From positions 1-51,096 of the IMG/VR virus record IMGVR_UViG_3300025120_000083: a stretch of DNA of 51,096 nt. One strand, written 5' to 3'. The number at the start of each line of letters is the position of its first letter. The stretch's first letter is position 1. This document shows positions 3,507 to 19,845 of the stretch, piece by piece. The notes below the pieces were generated by a model, which did not search any database, was not told where the DNA came from, and saw nothing but the letters and a program-made list of their open reading frames with translations. The position numbers were made by a program, and so were the translations under genes. This stretch comes from a virus.

Positions 3507-4115
3507 ATGGATAAAAATTATGGCGCAAGCAAGTCCGATACAGACAGAAAAAATGAAATGGATCCAGATCACGCGGATTTCAAACCTAATAAAGCTAGAA
3601 GAGTAGCCAATAGAAAAAGAAGATCAAAATATGGTCACGGTAAAAAAGGTAAAGCTAGAATGGCTGCTGATATAGCTAGAAAAGCTGCAACAGAAAAATT
3701 ACAAAGTATTGCAGATGGAGCTTCTATGTTTGGAGGCAAGAAAAGAAAAGAAAAACACGCGGCAAAAATCGCAGCTTTAAAAGTAGGTAAGAAAAATACA
3801 GAAGGAGCTTCTATGAATAAGCCTGATATGTCTGTACCAGCTAAAAAACTAAAGTATATAGAAAAAAGTTCAGGACCTTCTATGTATGGTAAAAAACACG
3901 GGTCTTCTATGAACGCTAGCCAAGATAAATCAGCATCGATGGATGATTATTCTCACGAAAAGAAATTAAAAGCCGATGGTAGGTATGAAGCTGCTCATGG
4001 TAAAATGGCGAATGCTAAGAATGATTTCGATCATGCACATGCTTTAAAGAAAGATGCACACTACGACGCAAAAGGTAGACACGCTATAATGAAACATATG
4101 AAAGGTTTTAAATAA
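3507..4115 (+). CDS. Lys-rich protein with five GASM-type motifs
   Basis: A 202-residue, highly basic protein (Lys, Arg, Ala, His rich; KARRVANRKRRSKYGHGKKG near residues 29-48) without membrane segments or a recognised fold. It carries the motif G-[A/S/P]-S-M at residues 71-74, 100-103, 123-126 and 132-135, with SASM at 142-145 and an early GASK at 6-9. The same motif recurs in at least seven other proteins of this late block. It looks like a DNA-binding packaged protein, possibly processed into small basic peptides at the motifs; that is inference. First gene of the late block; its TAA shares a base with the next ATG (TAATG). Confidence 0.8.
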   Translation: MDKNYGASKSDTDRKNEMDPDHADFKPNKARRVANRKRRSKYGHGKKGKARMAADIARKAATEKLQSIADGASMFGGKKRKEKHAAKIAALKVGKKNTEGASMNKPDMSVPAKKLKYIEKSSGPSMYGKKHGSSMNASQDKSASMDDYSHEKKLKADGRYEAAHGKMANAKNDFDHAHALKKDAHYDAKGRHAIMKHMKGFK

Positions 4116-4432
4116 TGGCTAAGAAATGTTATAATAGGAAAGGTGGTGCCAGTATGAATGGCATCACACCTGGTGGAAAAAAAGATAGAAACAAAAAACC
4201 TGTAAAAAAACTATCTGGAGAAAATACAGGTCCTATAAAGCAGGATAATAAAGGTAGAGATTATTCTTTAATAATGGAAACTAATAATAACTTTTTTAAA
4301 GGAGATACTATTAGACCTGCTAACGCACCTAGAGTTGATAACTTTATAATGGGTGGTGATTACAAGGCTGTAGAAAATAAAGACAGTAAAAAAAGAGCAA
4401 CAGACGAACCTAGATCTTTTACTATTAAATAA
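4115..4432 (+). CDS. Small basic protein with GASM motif
   Basis: A 105-residue basic protein beginning MAKKCYNRKGGASMNGITPG, with the GASM motif at residues 11-14, then a lysine-rich stretch (GGKKDRNKKPVKKLSGENTG) and a more acidic C-terminal half. No fold recognised. It is coupled to the previous basic protein through a TAATG junction and followed 6 nt later by the first tail fibre gene. I infer another packaged or virion-associated protein in which the motif marks the N-terminal region. Confidence 0.75.
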   Translation: MAKKCYNRKGGASMNGITPGGKKDRNKKPVKKLSGENTGPIKQDNKGRDYSLIMETNNNFFKGDTIRPANAPRVDNFIMGGDYKAVENKDSKKRATDEPRSFTIK

Positions 4433-4438
4433 TAAGAA

Positions 4439-5770
4439 ATGGCTATAATATATACTTATCCAGTAAAGAGTGTTCCATCAGACCAAGATTTAATATTAAT
4501 ATCTGATAGCACTAGTACTAACCCTAAGAAAAAAACAAAACAAATAACTGTTGCATCTATAAAGGGTTTAACAGCTGGTGTTTCTAGTATAATAGCAGGT
4601 AACAACATTACTATCAGTTCAACTGGTCAAAATGGTACAGGTGATGTAACTATAGATTCGAGTGCTGTTGTTCAACCAGGTGGAGCTGCTGAGGATGTAC
4701 AATTTAAAAATTCTTTAGGTAATTTTGATGGTAATGGTTATTTTACACTAAGTAGTATTCTTGTTCAAAATGGTGTTCCTACTCGTTATAGAAGGTTAAG
4801 ATTAGGTCAAACAGACTCTGACGGCGTTTTTACAGGGTTAAACCAAGCTGGTAGATTAGAATTGAGAGGTAGTAGATCTGGAACTGGTGGTTACGAAGGT
4901 GGTTCTATAGTGTTTTATAACGAAGATGATGAAAAGCGTATTATAATAAAAGGAAGTAGAGAGGATAGTACTGTAGCTGAAAATTACCAATTAACACTTC
5001 CAGCTGCAGCTCCAACTTCCGCTAATAAAATACTAGAGTCAAATGCTAGTGGTTTATTATCTTGGATAAATACACCTACCGGTGGTGGTACTGTAACTTC
5101 AGTGACAGCTTCTAGCCCTATAGGTTCTACTGGTGGCACTGCACCTGTTATATCACTAGCAGCTTCAGGAGTAGTTGCAGGAAGTTATACACATAGTAAT
5201 ATAACAGTAAGTGATAAAGGTTTAGTAACAGCTGCAAGTAATGGAGTTTTAGGTTATACACCTATAGACTATGCAGCGGCAGATACAACAGTGACTGGGA
5301 GCAATGCAAATAAAGCTCATGCTTACCAAGCCACTCCTGATTCAACCTTCACGTGCTCAAGAGCTAAAATAATGCTAAACCGAATCCCATCATTTTCAAC
5401 AGCGATTGGGAGCGGTATTACCGTAGGTATATATACTCGTGTTTCTACAGGTATAGGTACAGGTGCAGGTAATATATTATTGGGTCAAGGCTCTAAATCA
5501 GTATGGGCTAGTGATCCATATGGTTCTATTACTCTAGCTCCTGTAAATCCTGGAGACTTAGACTTAGTAGGAGGAGTTGCTTATGTTATTGTCGTAAGAT
5601 GTATAGGAGCTAATGCAGCAACTGGCTTGCTAGGTGTTTCCGGCATAACTGATGTACTTCTTGGAGCTGACTTTGCTAGTGCTACAGCTAGTCTACCTGC
5701 AACAATTAACAGTGAATTAGCCATTGGAACTACAACTTTCAGACCTGCAATAACACTTCACAGTGCGTAA
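4439..5770 (+). CDS. Tail fibre protein 1
   Basis: A 443-residue Ser/Thr/Gly-rich protein. Residues 1-8 (MAIIYTYP) and the following Asp-rich stretch are shared with the tail protein at 5837, so this end is probably the virion-attachment adaptor. The centre has the collagen-free fibre pattern GGTVTSVTASSPI ... GGTAPVISLAASG ... ITVSDKGLVTAASNG common in phage side fibres. The C-terminal half (about 290-443) is beta-rich and unrelated to the 5837 protein, consistent with a variable receptor-binding end. It probably forms trimers and binds a host surface glycan or protein. Confidence 0.8.
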   Translation: MAIIYTYPVKSVPSDQDLILISDSTSTNPKKKTKQITVASIKGLTAGVSSIIAGNNITISSTGQNGTGDVTIDSSAVVQPGGAAEDVQFKNSLGNFDGNGYFTLSSILVQNGVPTRYRRLRLGQTDSDGVFTGLNQAGRLELRGSRSGTGGYEGGSIVFYNEDDEKRIIIKGSREDSTVAENYQLTLPAAAPTSANKILESNASGLLSWINTPTGGGTVTSVTASSPIGSTGGTAPVISLAASGVVAGSYTHSNITVSDKGLVTAASNGVLGYTPIDYAAADTTVTGSNANKAHAYQATPDSTFTCSRAKIMLNRIPSFSTAIGSGITVGIYTRVSTGIGTGAGNILLGQGSKSVWASDPYGSITLAPVNPGDLDLVGGVAYVIVVRCIGANAATGLLGVSGITDVLLGADFASATASLPATINSELAIGTTTFRPAITLHSA

Positions 5771-5776
5771 ATACTA

Positions 5777-5821
5777 AATAACAGAACTATCAAGTATTGG
5801 GATATATAATCAACGTTAAAC
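5777..5821 (+). repeat. 45-nt intergenic element, copy 1
   Basis: Between the two tail fibre genes lies a 45-nt element starting AATAACAGAACTATCA and ending CAACGTTAAAC. A copy of identical length is at 6499-6543 after the second fibre gene, sharing both ends and differing mainly in the centre. A weaker relative (TGTGAT ... TTAACC ... TTAAAC) precedes the gene at 14343. Position before isolated late genes suggests an internal promoter or leader. Confidence 0.55.
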
Positions 5822-5836
5822 TAAAACCAAAAAATA

Positions 5837-6499
5837 ATGGCTATAATATACACTTACCCAAATGTAAATGATTTAGCTGATCATGACTCTTTTTTAGTCA
5901 CAGATTCAAGCGATGAAAACAACACTAGAAATTATTCTTATGGATCACTGTATCAACAACTCCAAAAAGGATGGACAGATGACTTTTCAAAAACTCTAAC
6001 AAAGTTTAGACAACAATCTGACTTACTTTATCAACCAATTGGTAGTAGCAGTGGAGCTTCTTTATTTCAATACAACGCATCTAGTTTTGCACCTTCTGTA
6101 GACTCAGGTACTACACCCAGTGTAGGAGCCGGTGGTTTTACTTACGCTTTAAGTGTTAGAGAAGGTAGTACAGATATAATAACTTTTAATTTTAGAATCA
6201 ACATAGTATCGCTAAGTGATACTAGCAATGTCATGAGATTTAAAAATATACCAGGAACTCCTGAAAATTTTTCAAACAGTGCTAAATGGTATGGCCAAGT
6301 TAAGGTAGTTGGTGCACCTAACATACATCAAAAAGCAACTATATGTGAAGTAACAGGATCAAATCCAGAAAGAATGAACTTTTATAGGATAGATTCTATT
6401 GGAGATATTGTTGAGTGCAACTGGACAGGAAACAGTCCAATAACTGAATCTATGTATATACAAGGATCTATAACATATGTCTCTATTACAGGATCATAA
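5837..6499 (+). CDS. Tail fibre protein 2
   Basis: A 220-residue protein starting MAIIYTYPNVNDLADHDSFL, so its adaptor end matches the fibre at 4439 (identical first eight residues, then the same spacing to a D-S-x-L-x-T-D-S pattern). The rest is beta-rich and polar, with no catalytic motif seen, ending ITYVSITGS. It is probably a second, shorter fibre or a cap attached to the same virion site. The gene is bracketed by the two 45-nt intergenic elements, so the fibre pair may be expressed separately from neighbours. Confidence 0.75.
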   Translation: MAIIYTYPNVNDLADHDSFLVTDSSDENNTRNYSYGSLYQQLQKGWTDDFSKTLTKFRQQSDLLYQPIGSSSGASLFQYNASSFAPSVDSGTTPSVGAGGFTYALSVREGSTDIITFNFRINIVSLSDTSNVMRFKNIPGTPENFSNSAKWYGQVKVVGAPNIHQKATICEVTGSNPERMNFYRIDSIGDIVECNWTGNSPITESMYIQGSITYVSITGS

Positions 6500-6543
6500 A
6501 TAACCGAACTATCATGTGATAGTATAAATAACCAACGTTAAAC
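6499..6543 (+). repeat. 45-nt intergenic element, copy 2, with 7-bp inverted repeat
   Basis: It starts AATAACCGAACTATCA and ends CAACGTTAAAC, matching the element at 5777-5821 without gaps. Inside it, ACTATCA-TG-TGATAGT at 6508-6523 is a perfect 7-bp inverted repeat, which copy 1 has lost on one side. It begins at the final base of the tail fibre 2 stop codon and precedes the gene at 6559 by 15 nt. It may be a promoter with an operator, or an mRNA processing site. Confidence 0.55.
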
Positions 6544-6558
6544 ATAAAACCAAACAAC

Positions 6559-6843
6559 ATGACGTTTTTATACACCAGTAGCTTTAAAGCTGCTACACAA
6601 CCTGATCAAAGAATGATCAACCATTGGAAACATATAACCGAAAAGAAAAACTGGAGGATTGTACAATTACCAAATGGATTTTTTCAAACCGAATACAAAC
6701 ACCCAGAAGATGGTGACTGGATTGATGTAACTAGAAGAGAAACAATGGATGGCGCTGAAGCCGCTATTGATGGATCTATAGAACATTACTCTAAAAAGTT
6801 AGAGTTTCTTCAAGGACCGAAAGTGGTTAAAACCTTCGAGTAA
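6559..6843 (+). CDS. Conserved-looking 94-residue phage protein, unknown function
   Basis: A 94-residue soluble protein. The C-terminal part (ETMDGAEAAIDGSIEHYSKK, then LEFLQGPKVVKTFE) has the regular helix then strand look of a compact alpha/beta domain; I recall similar short proteins in marine phages but cannot name a family. It has its own leader containing the 45-nt element at 6499-6543 and lies 32 nt before groEL. Function unknown. Confidence 0.7.
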   Translation: MTFLYTSSFKAATQPDQRMINHWKHITEKKNWRIVQLPNGFFQTEYKHPEDGDWIDVTRRETMDGAEAAIDGSIEHYSKKLEFLQGPKVVKTFE

Positions 6844-6875
6844 GTATTCAAACAAATCATATTAAATTAAATTAA

Positions 6876-8423
6876 ATGCAAGAATTAAAGTTAGTGAAAG
6901 AACTGGCTTTTGGCGAAACAGCCAGAGGCCAGATCTTAGCTGGCGTTGAAAAACTTACCAATGCTGTAGGTTCAACGTTAGGAGCAAGTGGTAAATGTGT
7001 AATACTAGAAGATGGCAATGGTTCACCTATAATAACGAAAGATGGTGTAACAGTAGCTAATTCAGTAACATTACAAAGACCATTAGAAAATATTGGAGCA
7101 ACACTTATTAAACAAGCTGCTCAAAGAACTGTATCAGATGCAGGAGATGGAACTACAACAGCAACAGTATTAGCAAAAGCTATATTAGATGAAGCTAATA
7201 AACACGACCTGTTAACTGACACTAGAACTATGAAAGAAGGTATTAACTTAGCTGTAGACAACGTAGTTAAATATCTTAACAAGAAAAGAAAAAAGATTAA
7301 AGGTAATAAAATAGATCAAGTAGCATCGATATCAGCTAATAACGATAAGCATTTAGGAAAGATAATAGGTGAAGCATTTAGAATGGTAGATGAAACCGGT
7401 ATAGTAATGATGGAGACAAATGAGGATCCAGAAACTGTAGTAGAACTAGTTGAAGGAGTACAATATAATCAACCATTAAAAAATCATCATTTTATTACAA
7501 ACAAAGAAAAAGGTATTTCTGAATTAGAAAATCCACTAGTTTTGATAGTAGAATCTAAAATAGAAAACATTAGAAAAATACAAGGTGTTTTAGAGCATGT
7601 TATAAAAAAAGGATTAAGCTTATTAATTATAGCAGATGTAGATACTCAAGTGTCATCAGCTCTAGCGATGAACAAAATGAAAGGTAACATCAAGGTTAAC
7701 ATTGTAGATGCACCTGTATATGGTATCAGTAAAAAAGAAACATTAAATGATCTATGTGCTGTTACTGGAGCTACTTTAATAAATGAAGACTTAGGAGATG
7801 ATATGGATCTTATAAGTGTAGAACATTTAGGTACATGTATTAAAGCAGTGTCAAACAATGAAGACACTATACTTCAAGTTGATTTAACTAATAACGAAGA
7901 TGTTAATCAGACTATAAACAGTCTTGATAAACTAATTAAAGAAACTACTAATCCTAATTTAATAGTTAGATATGAAAAAAGATTAGCAAAACTTAAAGCT
8001 AAAGTAGCTATTGTAAAAGTTGGTGCTAATTCTGAAGTAGAACTAAAAGAAAAAAGAGATAGAGTAGAAGATGCTATTTGTGCTACAAAAGCTGCTATTA
8101 AAGATGGTATAGTACCAGGAGGTGGTATAGCGTTGCTTAATGCTTCACAACAATTTACACCTAAATCTATTGGTGAAGAAGTTTTATACAAAGCTATTAA
8201 AAAACCTTTTGAAGTTATATTACAAAATGCTGGAGTAGAAGACTATAAAGAACCTACTCAAACGGGACAAGGACTAGACGTGGTTACAGGAAAAACGGTG
8301 GATATGGTAAAAGCCGGAATTATAGATCCTTTGTTAGTTACTAAAAGCGCATTACTTAACGCAGCTTCAGTAGCCACTACTATATTATCAACTGATTGTG
8401 TAATTAATAATATAAGAGCATGA
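6876..8423 (+). CDS. groEL: Phage chaperonin GroEL
   Basis: A 515-residue group I chaperonin subunit; E. coli GroEL has 548. The ATP site is kept: TLGASGK at 34-40, ITKDGVTVA at 53-61, GDGTTTATVLAK from residue 90 with D91 equal to GroEL D87, VEDAICATKAAIKDG with D399 equal to D398, and VPGGGIALL near 413. The apical domain is divergent and the Gly-Gly-Met tail is absent. It should form a ring folding phage proteins, most likely the capsid or large tail proteins encoded downstream. GroES overlaps its stop by an ATGA junction, and the order EL-ES is the reverse of the usual bacterial operon. Confidence 0.95.
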   Translation: MQELKLVKELAFGETARGQILAGVEKLTNAVGSTLGASGKCVILEDGNGSPIITKDGVTVANSVTLQRPLENIGATLIKQAAQRTVSDAGDGTTTATVLAKAILDEANKHDLLTDTRTMKEGINLAVDNVVKYLNKKRKKIKGNKIDQVASISANNDKHLGKIIGEAFRMVDETGIVMMETNEDPETVVELVEGVQYNQPLKNHHFITNKEKGISELENPLVLIVESKIENIRKIQGVLEHVIKKGLSLLIIADVDTQVSSALAMNKMKGNIKVNIVDAPVYGISKKETLNDLCAVTGATLINEDLGDDMDLISVEHLGTCIKAVSNNEDTILQVDLTNNEDVNQTINSLDKLIKETTNPNLIVRYEKRLAKLKAKVAIVKVGANSEVELKEKRDRVEDAICATKAAIKDGIVPGGGIALLNASQQFTPKSIGEEVLYKAIKKPFEVILQNAGVEDYKEPTQTGQGLDVVTGKTVDMVKAGIIDPLLVTKSALLNAASVATTILSTDCVINNIRA

Positions 8424-8680
8424 AAGCAGTAGGTAAGTATATAGTTATTAATCCTATAAAAGAAGTGGACTCTACCACTAAAGGAGGTTTAATACTAGCA
8501 GAATCACAAAGAGAAGATATAAGATACAGAAGAGCTAAGGTTGTAGAACCTGGCTCCGACGTAAAGGTTTTAAAAACTGGCGATGAGATATATTATGACA
8601 AAGCAGCTGGGTTTAAAATTGAAATTAATAAAGAGCAATATAAGGTTATAAAAGAGTTTGATGTAGTTATTATACTATGA
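8420..8680 (+). CDS. groES: Phage co-chaperonin GroES
   Basis: An 86-residue GroES-like protein; bacterial GroES is about 97. Residues 7-14 (YIVINPIK) form the first strand, and KEVDSTTKGGLILAESQ at 14-30 is the mobile loop with the conserved hydrophobic tip GGLIL that docks on GroEL. KTGDEIYYDKAAG near residues 52-65 matches the KVGDIVIF region. Coupled on both sides: its ATG overlaps the groEL stop and its TGA overlaps the next ATG. Paired with the phage GroEL it should close the folding chamber. Confidence 0.9.
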   Translation: MKAVGKYIVINPIKEVDSTTKGGLILAESQREDIRYRRAKVVEPGSDVKVLKTGDEIYYDKAAGFKIEINKEQYKVIKEFDVVIIL

Positions 8681-9111
8681 GAAAACTAACCTCATCTGAT
8701 TTAAGAGAACTTAAAATTTTAAAACATTATAGGATTATACGTAAATGGGCATGCAAAACAAGTGATCTTAATGATGCAGACCTTGAATTACTAATATACC
8801 TTGAATCTATTGACTTATTTAATAAAGATGACTTTAAGAAAGGTACATACTCATATAGCTGGGATAACAGGCGCTGGAACAGATTATTGAAACAAGGGTG
8901 GATTACAGTGTGGAGAAAAAGAAACCGCACAACCCAAAAATATCACATATATAAAGTATCCACAAAGTGCAAACAGCTAATAAGTAGAATGTATCGTATT
9001 ATGCTAGGTGAAGAAGATATGCCTACTAAAATATTTGATAAAAATAGTAGGTATAGCTTTACCGTCATGAGAACAGCTATACGTAACGTAAACAAAGACA
9101 AAAAAAGATAA
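8677..9111 (+). CDS. Winged-helix-like DNA-binding protein
   Basis: A 144-residue basic protein. Residues about 28-85 (SDLNDADLELLIYLESIDLF ... WDNRRWNRLLKQGWITVWRK) have a helix-helix-recognition helix-wing pattern as in MarR-type winged helices, followed by a basic wing (RKRNRTTQKYHIYKVSTKCK). A longer basic C-terminus follows (SRYSFTVMRTAIRNVNKDKK). It is coupled to groES by an ATGA overlap. I infer a late regulator or a DNA-binding virion protein; the fold is assigned by eye. Confidence 0.65.
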   Translation: MRKLTSSDLRELKILKHYRIIRKWACKTSDLNDADLELLIYLESIDLFNKDDFKKGTYSYSWDNRRWNRLLKQGWITVWRKRNRTTQKYHIYKVSTKCKQLISRMYRIMLGEEDMPTKIFDKNSRYSFTVMRTAIRNVNKDKKR

Positions 9112-9112
9112 A

Positions 9113-10111
9113 ATGGCATATAAACAAAACAATAACCCATTAAAAGGAGCTTCTATGCATGGGTCTCATAATAAAAACAACGATGGGGCATCAATCGCTT
9201 TTCTAGCAGCATTAGGTCCATTAGTAGCTAAAATAGGTGGAGCAATAGCTGGTATAGGCAAAGGTGCTTTAGTTAAAGGAGGTTCTGCAGCTGTGCAAGC
9301 AGGTGTAAAAGGAGGTACTAAACTAGCGGCAAAAGGTATTGCAAAAGGTAGTGCTAAAGGTATTACTAAAAAAATGGGTAAAGAAGGTATAAAAAGCATT
9401 GGTAAGAAAGTTCAACAAAGTGTCATTAAAGAAGGGGGAACTAAAGCAGCTGGTAGAGTAGCTAAAAAATCTGCTAAGAAAACTGCTAAAACAATGCTTA
9501 AAGAAAGTGGAAATGTAACTAAACAAACATTAAAAGAAACTTTAAGTAACACTAAAAATCAAGTAAAAAACAAAGTTTCACAAAGTATTGATAAAGTAGC
9601 CGATGCAACTGGCAAAGGTAGAGATGAAATTATAGACATGGGCAAATCTAAGGCTTTAACAGCTGCAGTAGGTTTAGGCTCAAAAGGCGTTGCAAAAGTA
9701 TCTGAAGGTCAAAGCGCTGACGTACAGGGTTTAAAACAAGAAACTAGTAAAGATGAAAATCAATCTTCTAGTTATTCTAACCCAATAGGACCATCTATGG
9801 CTCAAACACTTAAAGAACCAAGTGATGCGCTTCATCCTTCTAATATTAAAAAGTCAAGCGGATTGAAGTATGCTGTAGATAATTTTTCAGCACCAGTTAA
9901 TATAAAAGGAATAGACGTAGATGCTGGTAATGTACTTAGAGGAGCATTAGCTTTAGGTAAACACGCAAAAGGAAAAGTCACTAGGAGCAAGAGAATAAAA
10001 GAAATAAAAAGTAATAGAGAAAACCTTAAGCAATCTGCTAAAAAAGCTGCTAACGCAAGTTTTATGAAAAAGATGGCTCAAGATATGAAAATTGAAAATT
10101 TAAAAGGATAA
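9113..10111 (+). CDS. Histone H1-like Lys/Ala/Gly-rich protein with GASM motifs
   Basis: A 332-residue, very basic low-complexity protein. Motifs: GASM at 12-15, GASI at 25-28, GPSM at 226-229, plus ASFM near 315. Residues 29-60 are hydrophobic and glycine-rich (FLAALGPLVAKIGGAIAGIG), which could insert in a membrane. Residues 65-155 are Lys/Ala/Gly repeats resembling histone H1 tails. I infer a packaged DNA-binding or ejected protein whose N-terminal parts are separable at the motifs. It starts one base after the previous stop and runs to 5 bases before the next start. Confidence 0.75.
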   Translation: MAYKQNNNPLKGASMHGSHNKNNDGASIAFLAALGPLVAKIGGAIAGIGKGALVKGGSAAVQAGVKGGTKLAAKGIAKGSAKGITKKMGKEGIKSIGKKVQQSVIKEGGTKAAGRVAKKSAKKTAKTMLKESGNVTKQTLKETLSNTKNQVKNKVSQSIDKVADATGKGRDEIIDMGKSKALTAAVGLGSKGVAKVSEGQSADVQGLKQETSKDENQSSSYSNPIGPSMAQTLKEPSDALHPSNIKKSSGLKYAVDNFSAPVNIKGIDVDAGNVLRGALALGKHAKGKVTRSKRIKEIKSNRENLKQSAKKAANASFMKKMAQDMKIENLKG

Positions 10112-10115
10112 TATT

Positions 10116-10289
10116 ATGCCAAGTTACGGAGAAAAACAACAACCAGCAGGAAAAGTATTACATGGAAAATGTAAACCAGTTGTAGGTACAAGAACAATGA
10201 AGTCAAACAATTCAACTATAACACCTAACTTGAAGAGTATTGACAACATACCCTATAAGGGAAACGCTGTACTTAACGCTCAAAAGTAA
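10116..10289 (+). CDS. Unknown basic 57-residue protein
   Basis: A 57-codon frame from ATG 10116 to TAA 10287-10289, beginning MPSYGEKQQPAGKVLHGKCK and ending YKGNAVLNAQK. Basic, no membrane segment, likely extended. The last TAA shares a base with the next ATG (TAATG). It follows the Lys-rich 9113 protein with a typical ATATT leader. Probably another small virion-associated basic protein; function unknown. Confidence 0.65.
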   Translation: MPSYGEKQQPAGKVLHGKCKPVVGTRTMKSNNSTITPNLKSIDNIPYKGNAVLNAQK

Positions 10290-10441
10290 TGTTAGGCGAT
10301 GTTAAATTGTATATACTAAATGCTTTGTCATTTGGTATAACTATGATGGACTGGTTAGAACCTGTTTTGAAAATATTGTTATTGATAGTTACAATAGGTT
10401 ACACTGTTCACAGGTGGATGATACTAAAAAATAAAAAGTAA
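10289..10441 (+). CDS. Candidate holin, 50 residues, one membrane span
   Basis: A 50-residue protein from ATG 10289. Residues 1-24 (MLGDVKLYILNALSFGITMM, DWLE) form an amphipathic start, and residues 26-43 (PVLKILLLIVTIGYTVHR) a membrane helix, followed by a basic tail (WMILKNKK). Size, topology and position one gene upstream of the amidase suggest a small holin that permeabilises the inner membrane, but a second holin-like gene exists at 14791 and which one triggers lysis cannot be told here. Coupled to the previous gene by TAATG. Confidence 0.6.
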   Translation: MLGDVKLYILNALSFGITMMDWLEPVLKILLLIVTIGYTVHRWMILKNKK

Positions 10442-10445
10442 AGAC

Positions 10446-10706
10446 ATGATAGATAAAAATCAAATGGAAAAGCGTGAAGCAGAACAAGACGATATGCCTC
10501 AACAAGTTAATCCACCTATTCAAAATAATCCATTTTCTAATGGTACAGGATCTGCTAGACCAGTATTTAATGATGCTTCACAAAACGTTTTAGGTCAAGT
10601 TCAGCAAGGACAAAATTTAGGAAATTTAATGTTTAATCAGAAAAATCCATTAATTCCTCAAACACCTGGAAGTCCATTACCTCAAGATCCAAACTTACTT
10701 CAGTGA
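10446..10706 (+). CDS. Pro/Gln/Asn-rich protein, unknown
   Basis: An 86-residue protein of low complexity (MPQQVNPPIQNNPFSNGTGS; QVQQGQNLGNLMFNQKNPLI; PQTPGSPLPQDPNLLQ). It is probably unstructured. It starts 4 nt after the candidate holin stop and ends in TGA overlapping the GTG start of the amidase gene. Composition fits a virion linker or small ejected protein. No function recognised. Confidence 0.7.
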   Translation: MIDKNQMEKREAEQDDMPQQVNPPIQNNPFSNGTGSARPVFNDASQNVLGQVQQGQNLGNLMFNQKNPLIPQTPGSPLPQDPNLLQ

Positions 10707-11116
10707 GACAAATAAATAAAATAATAATACATTGTTCTGCCACTCGTGAAGGGCAAGACATTTCTATTGACACAATAAGAAAGTGGCACGTTGAAGGTAG
10801 AGGTTGGTCTGATATAGGATATCATTTTTATATAGACATTCATGGCGATATACATAAAGGTAGAGACATCGCTAAAATTGGAGCTCACTGCAAAGGGCAG
10901 AATAGAAATTCAATAGGAATATGCTATGCTGGAGGCGTTGAGGCAGATGGTAAGACTCCAAAGGATACTAGATATGATTGTCAAAAAGAAAGTCTCTTAG
11001 CGGTGCTAAGAACATTAAAAGCAATGTACCCTGAGTCTCAGATACATTCACATAATGATTATGCTAATAAAGCATGCCCAAGTTTTAACGCGACTGAGGA
11101 ATATAAGCACTTATGA
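10703..11116 (+). CDS. Endolysin: N-acetylmuramoyl-L-alanine amidase, T7-lysozyme type
   Basis: A 137-residue amidase of the Amidase_2 fold. It cleaves the amide bond between muramic acid and L-Ala in peptidoglycan. Zinc ligands by comparison with T7 lysozyme: H10 in IIIHCSAT, H117 in HSHNDY and C125 in NKACPSF; the H-to-C spacing of 8 and the Lys two before Cys (K123) match T7 H122, K128 and C130, and Y40 in GYHF matches T7 Y46. No signal peptide, so it needs a holin. The start is GTG inside the previous TGA (GTGA), and the stop overlaps the next ATG. T7 lysozyme also inhibits its RNA polymerase, notable given the T7-like promoters here. Confidence 0.92.
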   Translation: MRQINKIIIHCSATREGQDISIDTIRKWHVEGRGWSDIGYHFYIDIHGDIHKGRDIAKIGAHCKGQNRNSIGICYAGGVEADGKTPKDTRYDCQKESLLAVLRTLKAMYPESQIHSHNDYANKACPSFNATEEYKHL

Positions 11117-11391
11117 AAATAGGCGAAAGCACGGAATTTAAGATAGATCTTAAAACCATTATAAGTTTAATAATTGTAACAGCATCTTTTGTAGGTATGT
11201 ATTATACATTGCAAGACGATATAGCGGATGCTAAAAAAATGCCTAAAGCTGTAATAGATCGTATTGAATATGATTTAAAACAAGATTGGCATACTGATCA
11301 TATAAATAGACTAGAAGACGAGGTTAAAGAACTTCGTGACTGGTGTAGACAAATAGATAAAGAATTAACAGATGGCAACAAAAAGAGGTAA
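11113..11391 (+). CDS. Membrane-anchored coiled-coil protein, possible inner-membrane spanin
   Basis: A 92-residue protein. Residues 13-32 (LKTIISLIIVTASFVGMYYT) form one membrane span; residues 55-92 (IEYDLKQDWHTDHINRLEDE, then VKELRDWCRQIDKELT) are a charged coiled coil that would lie in the periplasm. This topology fits an i-spanin, which joins inner and outer membranes in Gram-negative lysis, and its ATG overlaps the amidase stop. No separate o-spanin lipoprotein was seen, so another membrane role remains possible. Confidence 0.6.
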   Translation: MKIGESTEFKIDLKTIISLIIVTASFVGMYYTLQDDIADAKKMPKAVIDRIEYDLKQDWHTDHINRLEDEVKELRDWCRQIDKELTDGNKKR

Positions 11392-11695
11392 AGCTAAAAA
11401 GAAAAACCCTTGCTGGAAAGGTTATACAGCAATGGGAGATGATGGGCAAATAGTCATGAAGAAAAAAGGTGATAAAATGGTTCCTGCATGTAGGCCTATA
11501 AAAGACGGTGCTTCAATTAAAAAACCAAAAGGAACTAAAAATGAAAAAGTGTTGTTTGTAAAGACAAAAGCAGATGAGTCAAAAGAAAATGGTAGAAGTG
11601 TTACAAAAGCTAAAGTGATGAGTGATAAAAAAGCTATTAGAAAAGAGAAAAAAGGAAAAGGCTCTAGGGTTAAAAAAATCACACTTGGCTCATGA
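11372..11695 (+). CDS. Small Lys-rich protein with NPCWKGY domain and GASI motif
   Basis: A 107-residue highly basic protein. Residues 12-41 (NPCWKGYTAMG ... KMVPACRP) form a short conserved-looking unit with two Cys, which I recall from small phage and large-DNA-virus proteins of unknown function. GASI at 46-49 directly follows that unit and precedes a Lys-rich tail. The start overlaps the previous gene by 20 nt, and TGA overlaps the next ATG. I infer a packaged DNA-binding protein with the motif as domain boundary. Confidence 0.7.
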   Translation: MATKRGKAKKKNPCWKGYTAMGDDGQIVMKKKGDKMVPACRPIKDGASIKKPKGTKNEKVLFVKTKADESKENGRSVTKAKVMSDKKAIRKEKKGKGSRVKKITLGS

Positions 11696-12165
11696 GACCA
11701 AGAGGCAAAAATAATAAATGTGCTATTGCTTGGAAAAAGTGGGAGGCTGGCTATGCCAAAAAAGAAGGTGGCAAAGAAGAAGCTGCTAGAGAAAGAAGAG
11801 AGTTTTATTGTGATAAAGGTAAAATAAAATTACGTCCTTCAAGTGATGCTGATGTACCTTTAACTGATAAGGAAATGGGTGCGAGTGCTGCTGAGCCGAG
11901 AAAAACAATAGGTAAAGGTAAAAACTTTAATAAAGCTAATCCTACAGGTACAGGTGCTGAAGCCGGTGGTGGTATGACACAGAAAGGTGTTAATGAATAT
12001 AAAAGTAAAAACCCTGGAAGTAAGTTAAAAACAGCTGTTACTAAAGATCCATCTAAACTAAAACCAGGAAGCAAAGATGCTAATCGTAGAAAATCTTTTT
12101 GTGCTAGATCAAAAAGTTGGGACGGTGAAAGAGGTAGAGCAGCAAGACGTAGGTGGAACTGTTAA
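11692..12165 (+). CDS. Basic protein with conserved Arg/Cys-rich C-terminal domain
   Basis: A 157-residue basic protein. GASA at 63-66 is a degenerate copy of the GASM motif. From residue 92 the sequence GGGMTQKGVNEYKSKNPGSK, then LKTAVTKDPSKLKPGSK and RRKSFCARSKSWDGERGRAA, then RRRWNC forms a domain I recall as DUF6321-like, present in marine phages and also in large algal viruses; this is from memory and unverified. N-terminal part KCAIAWKKWEAGYAKKEGG is a second possible small unit. Probably nucleic-acid binding and packaged. Coupled upstream by ATGA. Confidence 0.75.
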   Translation: MRPRGKNNKCAIAWKKWEAGYAKKEGGKEEAARERREFYCDKGKIKLRPSSDADVPLTDKEMGASAAEPRKTIGKGKNFNKANPTGTGAEAGGGMTQKGVNEYKSKNPGSKLKTAVTKDPSKLKPGSKDANRRKSFCARSKSWDGERGRAARRRWNC

Positions 12166-12175
12166 TACAAATATT

Positions 12176-12325
12176 ATGAAATCAAGAGGCTTAGGCGATA
12201 GTATAGAAAAGTTTACAAAAGCAACAGGTATAAAAAGAGTTGCAGATTTAATACCAGGTGGATGCAATTGTGATGAACGCAAACAATGGTTCAATAAGAA
12301 TTTTCCATATAACATGAATAAATAA
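12176..12325 (+). CDS. Small protein SRGLGDSIEKFTKATGIK type, unknown
   Basis: A 49-residue protein from ATG 12176. A longer frame upstream overlaps the previous gene, but this ATG has the normal A/T leader (AATATT) and begins the conserved-looking part: KSRGLGDSIEKFTKATGIK, then GGCNCDERKQWFNKNFPY. The CNC pair with DERK may be a minimal metal site or simple hinge. I recall similar tiny proteins in Bacteroidetes and marine phages, without function. Confidence 0.65.
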   Translation: MKSRGLGDSIEKFTKATGIKRVADLIPGGCNCDERKQWFNKNFPYNMNK

Positions 12326-12331
12326 AACAAA

Positions 12332-12883
12332 ATGGCTAAGAAATTTCCAGAAATAAAAGAAAAGAACGAAGGTAAATTTACTGCTTGGGTAGAAAAGAAC
12401 ATGGGTGGCATGGATACTTGTAAAGCTGCTAGCAAAGTAATGAGATCTCGTACTAAAAAGTATTCTCCAGCTGTAGTTAAAATGGCTAACTATGCTAATA
12501 ACTTTGGTTGCAAGAATAAAAAAGATGATGGTGCTTCAGTTCCGTTAAAAGGTAAACAAAAGAATTTACCAGACGCTTTAAAATCTAAAATACTAGCTTC
12601 TGACGGTTCGTCAATGAAAAACGGTAAGGTTAAAGATATTAAATCTAAAAAGTATGATAGAAAAATGAAAAAAGCCGACTCTGGTAGTGTAAAAGAGGAT
12701 GTTTATTTTCCTCTAACAGGAAAGCATGGAGAAGAAAATAGACCAAGAATAGCTATGGGTGATCCAGGTAGCATTACAGAAAAAAGATCAACAACTTTTA
12801 CTAAAGGTAATAAAAAATATACAAAAACACATAATTCTGGTAGTGGTGTTACATCTTATTCAAAAAAGAAAATTAAAAAATAA
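12332..12883 (+). CDS. Basic protein with N-terminal helical domain and four GxS motifs
   Basis: A 183-residue lysine-rich protein. Residues 13-60 (EGKFTAWVEKNMGGMDTCKA, then SKVMRSRTKKYSPAVVKMAN) make a helical unit with two Cys. Then come motif copies GASV 67-70, GSSM 92-95, SGSV 117-120 and PGSI 145-148, spaced about 25-28 residues apart, cutting the basic tail into near-equal segments. The spacing resembles the 202-residue protein at 3507. I infer a packaged protein processed or bound at these sites. Confidence 0.75.
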   Translation: MAKKFPEIKEKNEGKFTAWVEKNMGGMDTCKAASKVMRSRTKKYSPAVVKMANYANNFGCKNKKDDGASVPLKGKQKNLPDALKSKILASDGSSMKNGKVKDIKSKKYDRKMKKADSGSVKEDVYFPLTGKHGEENRPRIAMGDPGSITEKRSTTFTKGNKKYTKTHNSGSGVTSYSKKKIKK

Positions 12884-12886
12884 ACC

Positions 12887-13045
12887 ATGGAAAAAATAAA
12901 AGAATATATAAATCACCCATTATCTAAATGTATAGTTGCAGCTATTATTGGTGCAGGTTTATTATTAGAGAAACATCCAATGTATGCAGGTATCGCTTTT
13001 GGGTATGGACTAAGAGAATTATTTTTAGCTTTTAAATCAGAGTAA
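12887..13045 (+). CDS. Small membrane protein, 52 residues
   Basis: A 52-codon frame from ATG 12887 to TAA 13043-13045, beginning MEKIKEYINHPLSKCIVAAI. Residues 13-27 (KCIVAAIIGAGLLLE) and 32-49 (MYAGIAFGYGLRELFLAF) are hydrophobic, suggesting a two-helix membrane hairpin. It directly abuts the next gene's ATG. It could contribute to lysis or ejection, or stay in the host membrane. Function unknown. Confidence 0.65.
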   Translation: MEKIKEYINHPLSKCIVAAIIGAGLLLEKHPMYAGIAFGYGLRELFLAFKSE

Positions 13046-14290
13046 ATGAGTTTTAAACTTAACGGAGCACCTTACAATAAAGACAATATGAATATTGCAG
13101 TTTATCGTAAAGATCTTAAAGATGGTTCTGCCGGTAAGTCTAATCATACTGGTATTATAGTAGATACTAACGTAGATAAAAAAACAGAAGAAGCTGTAAT
13201 AGCTCATGAAACAGTTCACCAACATCAACAACGTAATGGTGAACTAGACTATGATAAAGAAAATTTCTATTGGAAAGGCAAAACTTATCCTAGGGAAAAC
13301 TTAAACGAACACAATGAGAATTTACCATGGGAAAAAGAAGCCTATGCTAAAAGCAATGGTATACTAAATGGAAAACAAGAAGATATGAAAGAAAGATTTC
13401 AACTCAAGGGTTATAGAGGTAATAACAAACCTTTTAAAACAATGTCCGATAGAGGATTAATAGGTGCTCAAGATGATGGTGCTTCTATAAAAAGAAAAGG
13501 TAAATACATAAGTACTCAGTACACAGAATCTCAAGAAGGTCAAAAAGTAGAGCCTAGTAAAGAAGAAGTTAGCAAGGTAACTACTGTAGCCCCTAAACCA
13601 GCCTCTACACATACTATGACCACTACTTTTCCTGGAGGTAATAAAAATGTTAAAACAACTATAATAGACCCAGCTAATCCAGGATCTACAACTGATCATG
13701 GTGTTATATCAGAAGGAAAAACTGGTGGAGTAACTAAAGGAGCTTATAAGAAAAAGGGAGCTACTAGAGTTCATGAAGTAGGTAAAATAAAGAAAAACAA
13801 AGGGTTGTCTAAACTAACTAGAGCTGAAGGCAAAGGAGACGCTTACTTAATAGAGAGAAAAAGAAAAGTAGAGGTTTCTAGCCCGACTAGAACTGACACT
13901 CCTGTTTATGACGATAATAATCAGATTGTAGGAAAGAAAAGAATAAATCAACCTTCAACTTACACTTTTACTAAATATGGCAAAGGAGAAAAAGAAAAAA
14001 TTAAACAATTTGTAGCTAAAGAAGATCAAGGTAAGGATGGTTACAAAGCTGAAAAAGGTACTAAGGTAAGATCTAGAAAAGCATTAGAAAAAAAGACTAA
14101 AAGATTTGCTAACTATAAATCTAATAAGATAGGTCAAGGTGACAAAAAACTAGCTAGAGGAAGCAATAAAGGATCTTATGAAACTAACAAAAGAGATAAT
14201 AAACTAACTTACGAGAAAAGAGAAAAAGCTCTAGCTTCTGGAGAGGAAGGTAAAAAGTTTATCCAAAAGAAAAGAAAAAAAGTTAAATAA
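13046..14290 (+). CDS. Metalloprotease-like domain fused to basic tail via GASI
   Basis: A 414-residue protein in two parts. Residues 1-140 hold AVIAHETVHQHQQ with HExxH at H54-E55-H58, followed by FYWKGKTY at 74-81 and PWEKEAY at 94-100, where E98 could be the third zinc ligand, the usual layout of small gluzincin-type zinc proteases. GASI at 145-148 follows directly. Residues 150-414 are lysine-rich and low-complexity (EKREKALASGEEGKKFIQKK at the end). I infer a virion protease that can be separated from its basic tail at the motif; a scavenged inactive fold is the alternative. No other capsid-maturation protease is evident near the capsid gene. Confidence 0.75.
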   Translation: MSFKLNGAPYNKDNMNIAVYRKDLKDGSAGKSNHTGIIVDTNVDKKTEEAVIAHETVHQHQQRNGELDYDKENFYWKGKTYPRENLNEHNENLPWEKEAYAKSNGILNGKQEDMKERFQLKGYRGNNKPFKTMSDRGLIGAQDDGASIKRKGKYISTQYTESQEGQKVEPSKEEVSKVTTVAPKPASTHTMTTTFPGGNKNVKTTIIDPANPGSTTDHGVISEGKTGGVTKGAYKKKGATRVHEVGKIKKNKGLSKLTRAEGKGDAYLIERKRKVEVSSPTRTDTPVYDDNNQIVGKKRINQPSTYTFTKYGKGEKEKIKQFVAKEDQGKDGYKAEKGTKVRSRKALEKKTKRFANYKSNKIGQGDKKLARGSNKGSYETNKRDNKLTYEKREKALASGEEGKKFIQKKRKKVK

Positions 14291-14342
14291 ACATTATTTG
14301 TGTGATTATATATATAGATATTAACCATTAAACCACATAAAT

Positions 14343-14804: not shown

Positions 14805-15243
14805 GAAAAGATTTAAAGAAACAAAAATAGGGGCTTTTTTAACAAAGAAAGCTCCTAAAATTCTTGATACTATAGGAGATGTACTTCCTGACAATGGTGC
14901 TTTTGGTATAGTAAAAAACTTGATATCAAGTGATAGTAGTTTAGGACCAGAAGATAAAGAAATGGCTTTAAAGTTACTAGAACAAGATATAGCAGAGATG
15001 AACAACATCTCTAGCAGATGGGCTAGTGATATGAAAAGTGATTCATGGTTAAGTAAAAACACAAGACCTATGACACTTATATTTTTAACGTTAGCAATGA
15101 CAATATTTATAATACTAGATTCAACTGTATTATTAGAAATAAAAACAGGTTGGGTTTCATTATTAGAAGCTTTACTTATAACAGTATATGTAGCGTACTT
15201 TGGATCTAGAGGCGCTGAGAAAATCACAAAAATAAAAAAATAA
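14791..15243 (+). CDS. Holin, GTA 3TM-type
   Basis: A 150-residue protein, start taken at ATG 14791 (MAKDKKRFKETK); an in-frame TTG at 14764 is less likely. Residues 72-93 (NISSRWASDMKSDSWLSKNT) followed by RP and membrane helices at 94-110 and 121-138 match the pattern of the GTA_holin_3TM family: amphipathic N-terminal part, conserved W-SD--SDSWLS-N-RP, two C-terminal spans. It would open the inner membrane for the amidase encoded at 10703. It overlaps the upstream gene by 14 nt and precedes a tail gene by 3 nt. Confidence 0.75.
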   Translation: MAKDKKRFKETKIGAFLTKKAPKILDTIGDVLPDNGAFGIVKNLISSDSSLGPEDKEMALKLLEQDIAEMNNISSRWASDMKSDSWLSKNTRPMTLIFLTLAMTIFIILDSTVLLEIKTGWVSLLEALLITVYVAYFGSRGAEKITKIKK

Positions 15244-15246
15244 AAA

Positions 15247-15816
15247 ATGGCAAAAAATCAATATAATTCTTGGGAGCCAGTACTTGACGGAGTAGTAGGT
15301 AATATGCAAGCTCAGCCTAGAGTTTTTGCTCATGATGCTAAACTAATAGTTATAGGCGCTATAAACAACACTGCTGGAGATGGTGGTTTTATAATATCTA
15401 ATGGTGGAACAGGTTTTGTAGCTGGAGATGTTGGTAGTACAATGACAGCTGCTACAGGGGCTGCGACTTTCACTATAACTTCAGTATCTAGTGGAGCTAT
15501 AACAGGATTAGACGTAGTAAACTTAGGTTCTGGATATGCAAAGAGTGGAAGTCCTTTAGCTTTCCAACCAGTAGCGTTAACTGGTGGTACTGGAAGTTCA
15601 GCGACTTTTACAGTGACTAATATAAATATACCTAATACTCAAAAAAGAGGATGTTGTTTATACGTTGGCTCAAGCGGATCTTGTGAGGTTGAAATGGAGT
15701 CAGGTAGCATAGCCACATTTGCGGCTATAAATGCAGGTTCATTTTTACCTATATTAGTAGTGAGAGTTGTAGCAGGTTCTAATACAGATGTTACAAACGT
15801 TTTAGCAATATATTAA
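15247..15816 (+). CDS. Beta-rich virion structural protein
   Basis: A 189-residue Gly/Ser/Thr-rich protein starting MAKNQYNSWEPVLDGVVGNM. Its middle repeats the pattern GGTGFVAGDVGSTMTAATGA ... LGSGYAKSG ... GGTGSSATFTVT, found in many marine phage appendage proteins and also in the 1195-residue tail protein here. The C-terminal third (GCCLYVGSSGSCEVEMESGS) is a compact beta domain. Probably a head fibre or tail appendage. Its TAA shares the A with the following micro-ORF start. Confidence 0.75.
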   Translation: MAKNQYNSWEPVLDGVVGNMQAQPRVFAHDAKLIVIGAINNTAGDGGFIISNGGTGFVAGDVGSTMTAATGAATFTITSVSSGAITGLDVVNLGSGYAKSGSPLAFQPVALTGGTGSSATFTVTNINIPNTQKRGCCLYVGSSGSCEVEMESGSIATFAAINAGSFLPILVVRVVAGSNTDVTNVLAIY

Positions 15817-15854
15817 TGTCTTGGATAGGTATTGGTAATAAAATTCCACAATAA
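15816..15854 (+). CDS. 12-codon micro-ORF MSWIGIGNKIPQ
   Basis: ATG at 15816 overlaps the upstream TAA (TAATG), and the TAA at 15852-15854 overlaps the next ATG in the same manner. The peptide MSWIGIGNKIPQ resembles the start of the next protein, MSWLSLLNTIPR: MSW, N and IP fall in the same positions. It may be a translated leader that couples the two genes or the remnant of a duplicated small gene. Confidence 0.4.
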   Translation: MSWIGIGNKIPQ

Positions 15855-16009
15855 TGAGTTGGTTAAGTCTATTAAATACAATACCTAGGATAGCGAACCT
15901 ACCTGGGCAACCTGGGCCTACGCCTGGAGCAAACGAAATAATAACAGAAATTGGTGACAATATAATTACCGAAGTTGGTGGTTTAGAAATGGTCACAGAA
16001 AACGCATAA
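15854..16009 (+). CDS. Small Gly/Pro-containing protein, unknown
   Basis: A 51-codon frame from ATG 15854 to TAA 16007-16009. It begins MSWLSLLNTIPRIANLPGQP; LPGQPGPTPG is a short collagen-like stretch, and the end (ITEIGDNIITEVGGLEMVTE) is a regular beta or helical repeat. It lies between tail appendage genes, so a small virion or trimerisation-associated protein is plausible. Confidence 0.6.
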   Translation: MSWLSLLNTIPRIANLPGQPGPTPGANEIITEIGDNIITEVGGLEMVTENA

Positions 16010-16011
16010 TA

Positions 16012-18348: not shown

Positions 18349-19190
18349 TGATAGTACAACCTTTTAGTTTTTTATCAGGATCAGCAGGTGGTGGAGGTGG
18401 TGGATACACTCCTCCTCAAGCTAATCTAACTGGAGATTGGAATCCAATATCTTCTAAGTTATTAAACTCAAGTGGATCATCTATAAGCAATGGTGATTTA
18501 GCAAGCCGTTTTGATGACACTAGCTCTAGTCTATATATGGATCAATCGAGTAATGCAGCGATGCCTGAATGGTTTGAATCAGATACTAATAGAAATAATA
18601 AACCATATTTAAGATTTAATAGAAATGCTAGTGGTGCAAGTAGTGGAGTAACATGGCTACAAGTCAATAGTCAATTTGCTTATGATGATTCAAGAATGAC
18701 TTTCTATTTAGTAGTTGATTATGATTCTAATACAGATTCTTACACTGATTTATTTACTAACTCTCCTGACGATGATTGGGATGAAGGTTTTAGTATTCAT
18801 TCTGAAAACGTTGGAAGTATTCATGGATCTATTGCTAATTGGCCAGGTAATGATGTAGAGATAAAAGATCCTTTTTCAAGCCCTAGAGTTGTTGTTTATA
18901 AATTTAGAACAGTAACAACTCCTTACTCTAATAGGGGAGGCTATACATCTGGTGGTAGTGTAATTTGGAATAGTGATACAAGCACTACTAATATGAATCA
19001 AGCTAGACAAAATTTAGGAACAATTTATTCTAAAGCACTTTTAGGAACTGGTAGAAATGGAAGCGGTGTTTTACCTTATTATGGTATGGGGTTTAACTTG
19101 TATAGAATGTTGATATATGATGAGACTCATACAGATGCAGAATCTGAAGCAATCATGGCTGATTTAAAAACAGAATATAATACTTTATAA
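18348..19190 (+). CDS. Lectin-like tail protein (concanavalin/LamG type)
   Basis: A 280-residue protein, start at ATG 18348 (MIVQPFSFLSGSAGGGGGGY); a longer frame upstream lies inside the fibre gene and is not used. After the glycine linker comes a jelly-roll type domain: MTFYLVVDYDSNTDSYTDLF, a central WNSDTSTTNMNQARQNLG and the closing strand-helix FNLYRMLIYDETHTDAESEA. That closing pattern is typical of LamG/concanavalin-like modules in phage tails. Likely role: binding host surface polysaccharide. Confidence 0.7.
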   Translation: MIVQPFSFLSGSAGGGGGGYTPPQANLTGDWNPISSKLLNSSGSSISNGDLASRFDDTSSSLYMDQSSNAAMPEWFESDTNRNNKPYLRFNRNASGASSGVTWLQVNSQFAYDDSRMTFYLVVDYDSNTDSYTDLFTNSPDDDWDEGFSIHSENVGSIHGSIANWPGNDVEIKDPFSSPRVVVYKFRTVTTPYSNRGGYTSGGSVIWNSDTSTTNMNQARQNLGTIYSKALLGTGRNGSGVLPYYGMGFNLYRMLIYDETHTDAESEAIMADLKTEYNTL

Positions 19191-19191
19191 T

Positions 19192-19467
19192 ATGATTAAA
19201 TTAATAGTTAAAGATAGTAAAGAAGAGCTAAGGATTATTGAGCAAAGTATAACAAGTACTATAAACAACGGAAAATCTTATTTACTGGAAGAAAACTGGC
19301 TGCAAAACATTCCTAATCCTAATAAATGGGCTATATGGGTAAATATACACTGGGAAAACGAGATAAAATTAGCAATAGGTCAAGATGCTTGGGACGAATG
19401 TATAGAAATAGAAAATCAAGATCCAAACTGGTTTAAGCCAAGATCTCTTGTAAAAAAAGATAATTAA
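19192..19467 (+). CDS. Unknown 91-residue protein, possible fibre accessory
   Basis: A 91-residue soluble acidic protein, rich in Trp (NWLQNIPNPNKWAIWVNIHW, then ENEIKLAIGQDAWDECIEIE). It begins one base after the stop of the lectin-like tail protein, so it may be a fibre assembly chaperone, but no family is recognised. The next gene has its own A-rich leader, so this gene ends the appendage set. Confidence 0.65.
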   Translation: MIKLIVKDSKEELRIIEQSITSTINNGKSYLLEENWLQNIPNPNKWAIWVNIHWENEIKLAIGQDAWDECIEIENQDPNWFKPRSLVKKDN

Positions 19468-19481
19468 TCTCAGTTTGTCAC

Positions 19482-19524
19482 AAAACAAAAACAAAACATA
19501 AACAAAACATAAACAAAACAAAAA
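19482..19524 (+). repeat. A-rich tandem repeat leader
   Basis: The leader before the gene at 19525 is nearly all A and C with two perfect copies of AAAACATAAAC (19493-19503 and 19504-19514) and a partial third. No Shine-Dalgarno sequence is present. Such unstructured A-rich leaders favour initiation in Bacteroidetes. It separates the appendage genes from the terminase set. Confidence 0.5.
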
Positions 19525-19845
19525 ATGGCTTTAAAAATAACAGCAAGCGGAGACGCTAAATTAGTAGTAAGTGGAACTGCTACTGAACTATCTGAAATCT
19601 ACTCTAGATTAGAGTTTGGATTACCGAAGAACGGAGCGTCTATGAACGCTGGGTTATACAATTATGCTTCACAAGCTTTATACGAAGCTGAATCAGGATC
19701 AACACTAAGATTAGATAATTTTGGAACTAACTACAATGTAGAAATAGTAGCTCCAGCTGAACAATCGTTAATGACTGGTCATGAAGGAGTTAAATCTCAA
19801 CTAGAAGCTTTAGGTTATACAGTAGAAATAGTAGATTTAGTTTAA
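19525..19845 (+). CDS. 106-residue virion-associated protein with GASM motif
   Basis: A 106-residue protein unlike the other motif carriers: not lysine-rich but a compact alpha/beta sequence. Residues 1-36 (MALKITASGDAKLVVSGTAT; ELSEIYSRLEFGLPKN) precede GASM at 37-40, then NAGLYNYASQALYEAESGST and a C-terminal GVKSQLEALGYTVEIVDLV. If the motif is a cut site, a 38-residue leader would be removed. Its strong leader suggests high expression. It could be a head decoration or packaged protein. Confidence 0.7.
   Translation: MALKITASGDAKLVVSGTATELSEIYSRLEFGLPKNGASMNAGLYNYASQALYEAESGSTLRLDNFGTNYNVEIVAPAEQSLMTGHEGVKSQLEALGYTVEIVDLV

Follow-up and report, generated by a model that had tools for sequence, protein, structure and literature searches.

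The virus record IMGVR_UViG_3300025120_000083, analysed here over its full 51,096 nucleotides (the window), encodes seven Lys-rich late proteins that share a short tag with the core (D)GAS, after which Met is favoured and optional. Their genes, named by start position, are 3507, 4115, 9113, 11372, 11692, 12332, and 13046 (span 3507-14290). Tags in related genomes (L numbers below) fall into class A (GAS), class B (KSPA, SPL/SPF), class C (GP[MT]A, in longer form KGP[MT]A), and class D (GPS/GMYG/MYDGP). We consider the tags to be lineage-specific recognition sites, probably for the proteolytic separation of virion polyproteins, with the zincin-like domain of 13046 as candidate enzyme; judged from the sequences, this reading has about an even chance of being right. 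Its sequence-based support comes from the enrichment of the tag, its position at module joints, its replacement by other tags, the diversity of its codons, and its agreement with the zincin tree.

The pattern G[ASP]S[MIV] occurs 12 times in the seven proteins, where 0.27 occurrences are expected (maximum 4 in 2000 shuffles), and the shuffled-protein check suggested in a first-pass annotation of this DNA thus contradicts composition alone. A regular expression recovers every copy that the annotation had listed, including the GASA of 11692. GAS is present in 7 of the 7 proteins, and the top 4-mer obtained without prior choice of a motif is DGAS, in 5 of 7; the best 4-mer of the shuffles reached five proteins in 2 of 500. 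The other window proteins hold four matches with 2.0 expected, one each in 19525, 28800, 29639, and 39749. The first of these had been counted as an eighth tagged protein, and here we part from the annotation: 19525 is of folded type with 4% Lys, and with 0.09 GASM expected in the non-cluster proteome chance is the simplest explanation. A related contig of 63.4 kb likewise has the motif clustered in basic late genes, with single matches elsewhere. The fourth residue, given at first pass as Met, Ile, or Val, is not obligatory, since class A relatives (L091, L111, L122, L124, L125, L166, L171, L174, and others) have M, A, F, V, E, K, Q, or L after GAS (e.g., DGASK, DGASA, DGASQ, DGASF, and DGASE). 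Met is enriched 10.6-fold at this place and Asp 9.3-fold before GAS, which bears out Asp among the preceding residues proposed earlier (Asp, Asn, Glu, or Lys).

That codons differ between copies, with selection acting at the protein level, had also been proposed and holds in the wider sample, in which 89 GAS copies from related genomes are encoded by 27 different 9-mers with a codon entropy close to background. Origin of the tag as a DNA repeat or recombination scar is not supported by this diversity. An exact DNA search of the record with a single guessed coding of DGASM found no match, which is uninformative as one coding only was covered. Some of the tandem GKKHGSSMY repeats at L124:1847-2416 are local duplications, and tag copies may multiply in that way.

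Many of the tagged proteins are built of small modules, each of which is a separate gene in other genomes. With a boundary defined as the start or end of a module's stand-alone homologues, supported by at least five open reading frames (ORFs), 50 of the 83 boundaries in all tagged basic proteins lie within 5 residues of a tag, whereas random placement would give 9.5 and did not exceed 20 in 5000 draws; this test counts orthologues repeatedly, with about 10 distinct joint types recognised by eye. Class A alone gives 32 of 49 boundaries near a tag, compared with 5.7 expected. In the joint count and in the nearest-neighbour count below, the class D pattern excludes VGMYY, a conserved membrane-protein string. 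The zincin domain is the chief exception, its C-end lying ~40 residues ahead of the next tag. The genes, modules, and tags of the window are as follows, with structural confidence given as the predicted local distance difference test score (pLDDT).

3507..4115, + strand: gene 3507, Lys-rich late protein of 202 residues with five tag copies
Within 3507..4115, + strand: C-terminal module of 3507 (GSSMNASQDKSASMDDYSHEKK...GFK), the conserved part of the family by family alignment
3522..3530, + strand: YGAS tag (GAS core), residue 6 of 3507, from the family alignment
3717..3728, + strand: DGASM tag (G-A-S-M codons), residue 71 of 3507, motif match
3804..3815, + strand: EGASM tag, residue 100 of 3507, motif match
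3873..3884, + strand: GPSM tag, residue 123 of 3507, motif match
3900..3911, + strand: HGSSM tag, residue 132 of 3507, starting the C-terminal module, boundary offset −1
4115..4432, + strand: gene 4115, Lys-rich late protein of 105 residues with an N-terminal tag
4145..4156, + strand: GGASM tag, residue 11 of 4115; L124 and L125 have YGASQ at a like place
9113..10111, + strand: gene 9113, Lys/Ala-rich late protein of 332 residues with three tags
9146..9157, + strand: KGASM tag, residue 12 of 9113, motif match
9185..9196, + strand: DGASI tag, residue 25 of 9113, motif match
9788..9799, + strand: GPSM tag, residue 226 of 9113, in SNPIGPSM; L124 has SNPTGASM
11372..11695, + strand: gene 11372, Lys-rich late protein of 107 residues; its N-terminal CW module is a separate 42-residue gene in L100
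11507..11518, + strand: DGASI tag, residue 46 of 11372, where the CW module ends, boundary offset −1
11692..12165, + strand: gene 11692, Lys-rich protein of 157 residues composed of AWKKWEAGYA module, tag, and DUF6321 module
11878..11889, + strand: MGASA tag, residue 63 of 11692, at the module joint, boundary offset −1
11890..12162, + strand: DUF6321 (PF19846) module, best stretch residues 90-146 (E = 2.9e-11)
12332..12883, + strand: gene 12332, Lys-rich protein of 183 residues composed of FPEIK module, tag, short helix, tag, and tail
12344..12520, + strand: FPEIK module (residues 5-63), predicted helical with block pLDDT 83-89 and encoded on its own in many relatives
12530..12541, + strand: DGASV tag, residue 67 of 12332, in a stretch of pLDDT < 50 (residues 66-76)
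12605..12616, + strand: DGSSM tag, residue 92 of 12332, following the KQKNLPDALKSKILAS helix
13046..14290, + strand: gene 13046, protein of 414 residues with an HExxH metallopeptidase-like N-domain and a Lys-rich tagged tail
13046..13360, + strand: zincin-like domain of 13046, with H54, E55, H58, and E96 invariant in 48 sequences
13478..13489, + strand: DGASI tag, residue 145 of 13046, after RGLIGAQD; L124 has RGLIGASM and L087 RGLISDSPV

A close examination of single joints illustrates the pattern. FPEIK stands alone in most relatives, where it starts M-AKKFPEIK and ends GC..KKK; when fused, it is preceded by GAS (EQ-GAS-KKFPEIK, KNDGAS-KKFPEIK, KRMGAS-AKFPEIK) and followed by a tag, either as GCKTKK-DGAS in class A or as GCSVKGKGKGPTA in class C. 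The MGAS of 11692 separates DUF6321 from the AWKKWEAGYA module, which is a separate gene in L125. In L124 a single chain holds three modules, each joined to the next by DGAS, whereas L100 encodes the CW, DUF6321, FPEIK, and zincin units individually, in genes that lack a tag. The place of 9113 is taken in L124 and L125 by Lys/Ala-rich proteins that are also tagged. In the structure model of 12332, used for order and disorder only, the tags lie in stretches of pLDDT < 50 beside ordered helices. The DUF6321 module is also common to cyanophages and pelagiphages, so that the same small module occurs in phages of unrelated hosts.

The search in related phages, likewise suggested at first pass, found the same GAS tag in class A genomes and other tags in other lineages, where they occupy the same joints. 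DUF6321 is preceded by DGAS (L124), MGAS (the window), KKSPAK (L087), or KSSGPS (L021); FPEIK is followed by DGAS in class A and GPTA in class C; and the KQKNLP helix has on its two sides DGAS/DGAS (A), KSPA/SPA (B), or DGPS/PGMFG (D). After the RGLI element L124 has GASM and L087 SDSPV. Strongly tagged genomes mostly have one tag type each. The class call behind these comparisons is strict and left 132 of the 161 scored groups unclassed, many of them fragments. We also noticed that L166 and L100 differ in tag state although their 8677 genes are nearly identical, suggesting that close relatives have exchanged the tagged block.

The candidate enzyme comprises residues ~1-105 of 13046, with the motifs HExxH and PWExxAY; M1, G30, H54, E55, H58, and E96 are the sole positions invariant in 48 relatives, and E96 is the putative metal-ligand residue downstream of HExxH. 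A Pfam scan of the domain gave no match. Its best Foldseek matches are proabylysin (4jiu, 105 residues) and PprI/IrrE, which are like it in size (~105 residues) and in having an HExxH helix and a downstream Glu; the coverage is partial, and the peptidase role of the phage domain is a prediction.

Among the seven genes compared by tree (zincin, GroEL, 8677, amidase, holin, major capsid protein (MCP), and TerL), tag class agrees best with the zincin phylogeny. Only 2 class changes are needed on the zincin tree, which is the minimum, with supported clades for class A (100/99.9) and class D (100/99.5), compared with 4 changes for GroEL and MCP, 5 for 8677, amidase, and TerL, and 6 for the neighbouring holin gene 14764. 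The approximately unbiased (AU) test rejects a single class A clade for GroEL (p = 0.016), amidase (p = 2.8e-4), and holin (p = 8e-84), and does not reject it for 8677. As GroEL, 8677, and the amidase gene are located between tagged genes, plain linkage is not enough to explain this agreement. By nearest neighbour, the zincin predicts class in 42 of 46 cases and gene 8677 in 33 of 46. Five more loci from genome bins all combine class B zincins with SP-type tags; as they represent one class only, the replication they give is weak.

Several observations weigh against the zincin as enzyme and against cleavage in general. The zincin model has a pLDDT of 77, that is, moderate confidence, and its Foldseek matches are weak (E 0.18-0.5), with probabilities of 0.96-0.98 for PprI and proabylysin. 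Class B, which lumps KSPA with SPL/SPF, is not a supported zincin clade (AU 0.17, not rejected), and the class thresholds and patterns were set after examples had been seen. In the nearest-neighbour comparison the edge of the zincin over GroEL (p = 0.11) and amidase (p = 0.25) is not significant, and the FPEIK module and a short GLGDS gene predict class as well as the zincin does. Since the zincin ORF is itself tagged and stands beside tagged genes, it may track class as exchanged cargo, and it also occurs in genomes without a called tag. Tags near the N-terminus of single-module proteins (MYTSPFLQK-FPEIK) are unexplained by separation alone. The cutting enzyme may instead be a protease of unrecognised fold, and the 63.4-kb relative has another HExxH protein, its giant late protein (HESLHN). 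The giant late protein of the window (39749-49744, 3331 residues) contains HEGLHN, again of HExxH form, and a HAD-like stretch seen by eye, with no Pfam match, and is possibly a second candidate metallopeptidase.

In the mechanism that we propose, the tag would be recognised by a phage factor acting in trans, for which a protease is the likeliest choice, and cutting at the tags would separate small basic modules made as longer chains. Tags may also mark N-terminal leaders. The version of the tag would differ between phage lineages and be the same throughout the tagged proteins of one lineage. The ~105-residue HExxH domain at the N-terminus of 13046 would be the best candidate for the enzyme, and in this lineage it could cut its own tagged tail; once cut, the basic modules would either accompany the DNA inside the head or be ejected. 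We infer the cleavage, its timing, the role of the zincin, and the virion location of the products from the comparative patterns. The first-pass annotation had left open whether the tag served cleavage by a virion protease or loading into the capsid; a common signal is supported, and the comparative evidence favours cleavage over loading.

Such a system may work in the manner of a prohead protease. In T4 and SPN3US a phage enzyme cuts several internal head proteins at a shared short motif during head maturation, SPN3US substrates lose N-terminal propeptides, and gp245 of SPN3US additionally cleaves off a C-terminal propeptide of its own (PMC10052503). In contrast, the tags described here part modules inside chains and differ between close lineages, the pattern G[ASP]S[MIV] is absent from portal 23398, scaffold-position 25825, and MCP 26922, and the enzyme proposed is a zincin-like domain. 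A scan of part of the window ORFs with Pfam and PHROGs revealed no recognised prohead protease, nor did a Pfam scan of ten proteins from L249/L252, the 63.4-kb relative. With neither a recognised protease nor the motif in shell or scaffold, two defining features of prohead-protease systems, we do not file the tag there. The adenovirus protease (AVP) cuts core precursors that accompany the packaged DNA (PMC4246237); the likeness to adenovirus and to other eukaryotic viral polyproteins is one of principle only, with another enzyme class and another virus. Crassviruses, which the window resembles in its muzzle domains, keep cargo proteins in capsid and tail; these are large, and the crassvirus paper mentions neither cleavage nor protease (0 occurrences) (PMC10172136).

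The strongest rival is a docking or loading motif, given the N-terminal position of some tags and the possibility that the zincin ORF is just tagged cargo. On this view the uncut tag would bind scaffold, portal, shell, or DNA of the phage and so bring basic proteins into the head. We regard this as unlikely, yet worth keeping in view. It would account for the N-terminal copies in several proteins (4115, 9113; MKNNDGAS in L124), for SPF/SPL near the N-terminus of stand-alone FPEIK modules, and for several copies per protein; linkers between modules are accessible, which would suit the joint position, and a co-evolving binder would also give lineage-specific matching. L214, L219, L220, L224, and L240 have stand-alone FPEIK with N-terminal SPF/SPL, resembling a tagged leader, and with N-terminal copies such as those of 4115 and 9113 the tag may in addition serve in loading or as a leader. 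Against docking, stand-alone modules of relatives lack the tag, the MCP and TerL trees fit the tag classes worse than the zincin tree, and short basic proteins of the same genomes are mostly untagged. Among class A basic proteins, those of 40-99 residues carry 1.0 tag per 1000 residues (2 in 1959, with 2 of 28 proteins tagged) and those of at least 150 residues carry 8.1 (81 in 10,030, with 38 of 39 tagged; p = 5e-5). If the short proteins are packaged, a general loading tag should be present on them as well.

Improbable in our view are passive joints, in which the tag is a flexible linker or a scar of recombination from module shuffling, with no recogniser. Its position at joints of exchanged modules, its small residues, which are typical of linkers, and the low-confidence stretches in which the 12332 model places it would all fit. 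A shared DNA scar is contradicted by the near-background codon use, a free linker would not need different tags by lineage at the same joint, and the prevalence of one tag type in each strongly tagged genome also argues against it. We give slightly less credence, and little in all, to a tag suited to a host protease, with tag classes mirroring host lineages. This would need no phage gene and would fit tags that differ between phage lineages with possibly different hosts, but the near-identical 8677 genes of L166 and L100 have different tag states, and class follows the zincin rather than GroEL, MCP, or TerL. That Gly/Ala/Ser/Lys-rich disordered proteins yield GAS by chance is hardly credible: the tagged proteins are low in complexity and matches outside the cluster come close to the expected number, but the enrichment within it and the joint position contradict this.

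The presence of the window's tagged proteins in the virion is inferred by way of a cultured relative. In Cellulophaga phage phi40:1 the basic proteins gp069 and gp080 are structural by tandem mass spectrometry, and gp078, two genes before gp080, is the homologue of 8677, so basic proteins of the 8677 neighbourhood are virion proteins in one cultured relative. The searches made found no cultured homologues of 12332, 3507, the fusion protein of L124, or the poly-tag protein of L087, and no tag was seen in basic proteins of the cultured relatives phi38:1, phi13:2, elemoC, MW202828, Gundel_1, and Panino.

The record is that of an uncultured marine phage, with hosts likely in the Flavobacteriia group. 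Its TerL is 65% identical to that of podovirus MW202828, 44% to those of Flavobacterium elemo phages, and ~37% to those of Cellulophaga phages, and the genome bins of bacteria that contain related TerL genes are mostly Bacteroidota. Two crassvirus muzzle domains are above cut-off (PF25731 in 31570, E = 4e-11; PF25729 in 35173, E = 9e-11); for the MCP, crassvirus PF23898 is below cut-off (12.2 of 27 bits), and a PHROG virion protein matches with E = 3e-92. Neighbours of the tagged genes are GroEL (6876), gene 8677, an amidase (10703), and the holin-like 14764 (PHROG match). The GroEL-like (6876-8680) and GroES-like (20362-20919) proteins are both phage-encoded, and 20362 matches a second GroES-type PHROG family.

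Our literature searches found no description of such a tag. Even without the enzyme, lineage-specific tags that replace one another at equivalent joints in unrelated proteins demand a recogniser, and none is named in the literature searched. More tentatively, and with rather less than even confidence, we suggest a phage polyprotein strategy in which many small basic virion modules would be produced in joined chains and severed at a short tag by a minimal zincin; the tag would co-evolve with its enzyme, giving each lineage a private cleavage code. If this is right, tailed phages would have an equivalent of the viral polyprotein strategy, and the naturally occurring, matched pairs of tag and enzyme would let specificity be read off metagenomic data. 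The pairs would provide a set of orthogonal small proteases with their sites, and short low-complexity late proteins that family searches fail to place would be accounted for.

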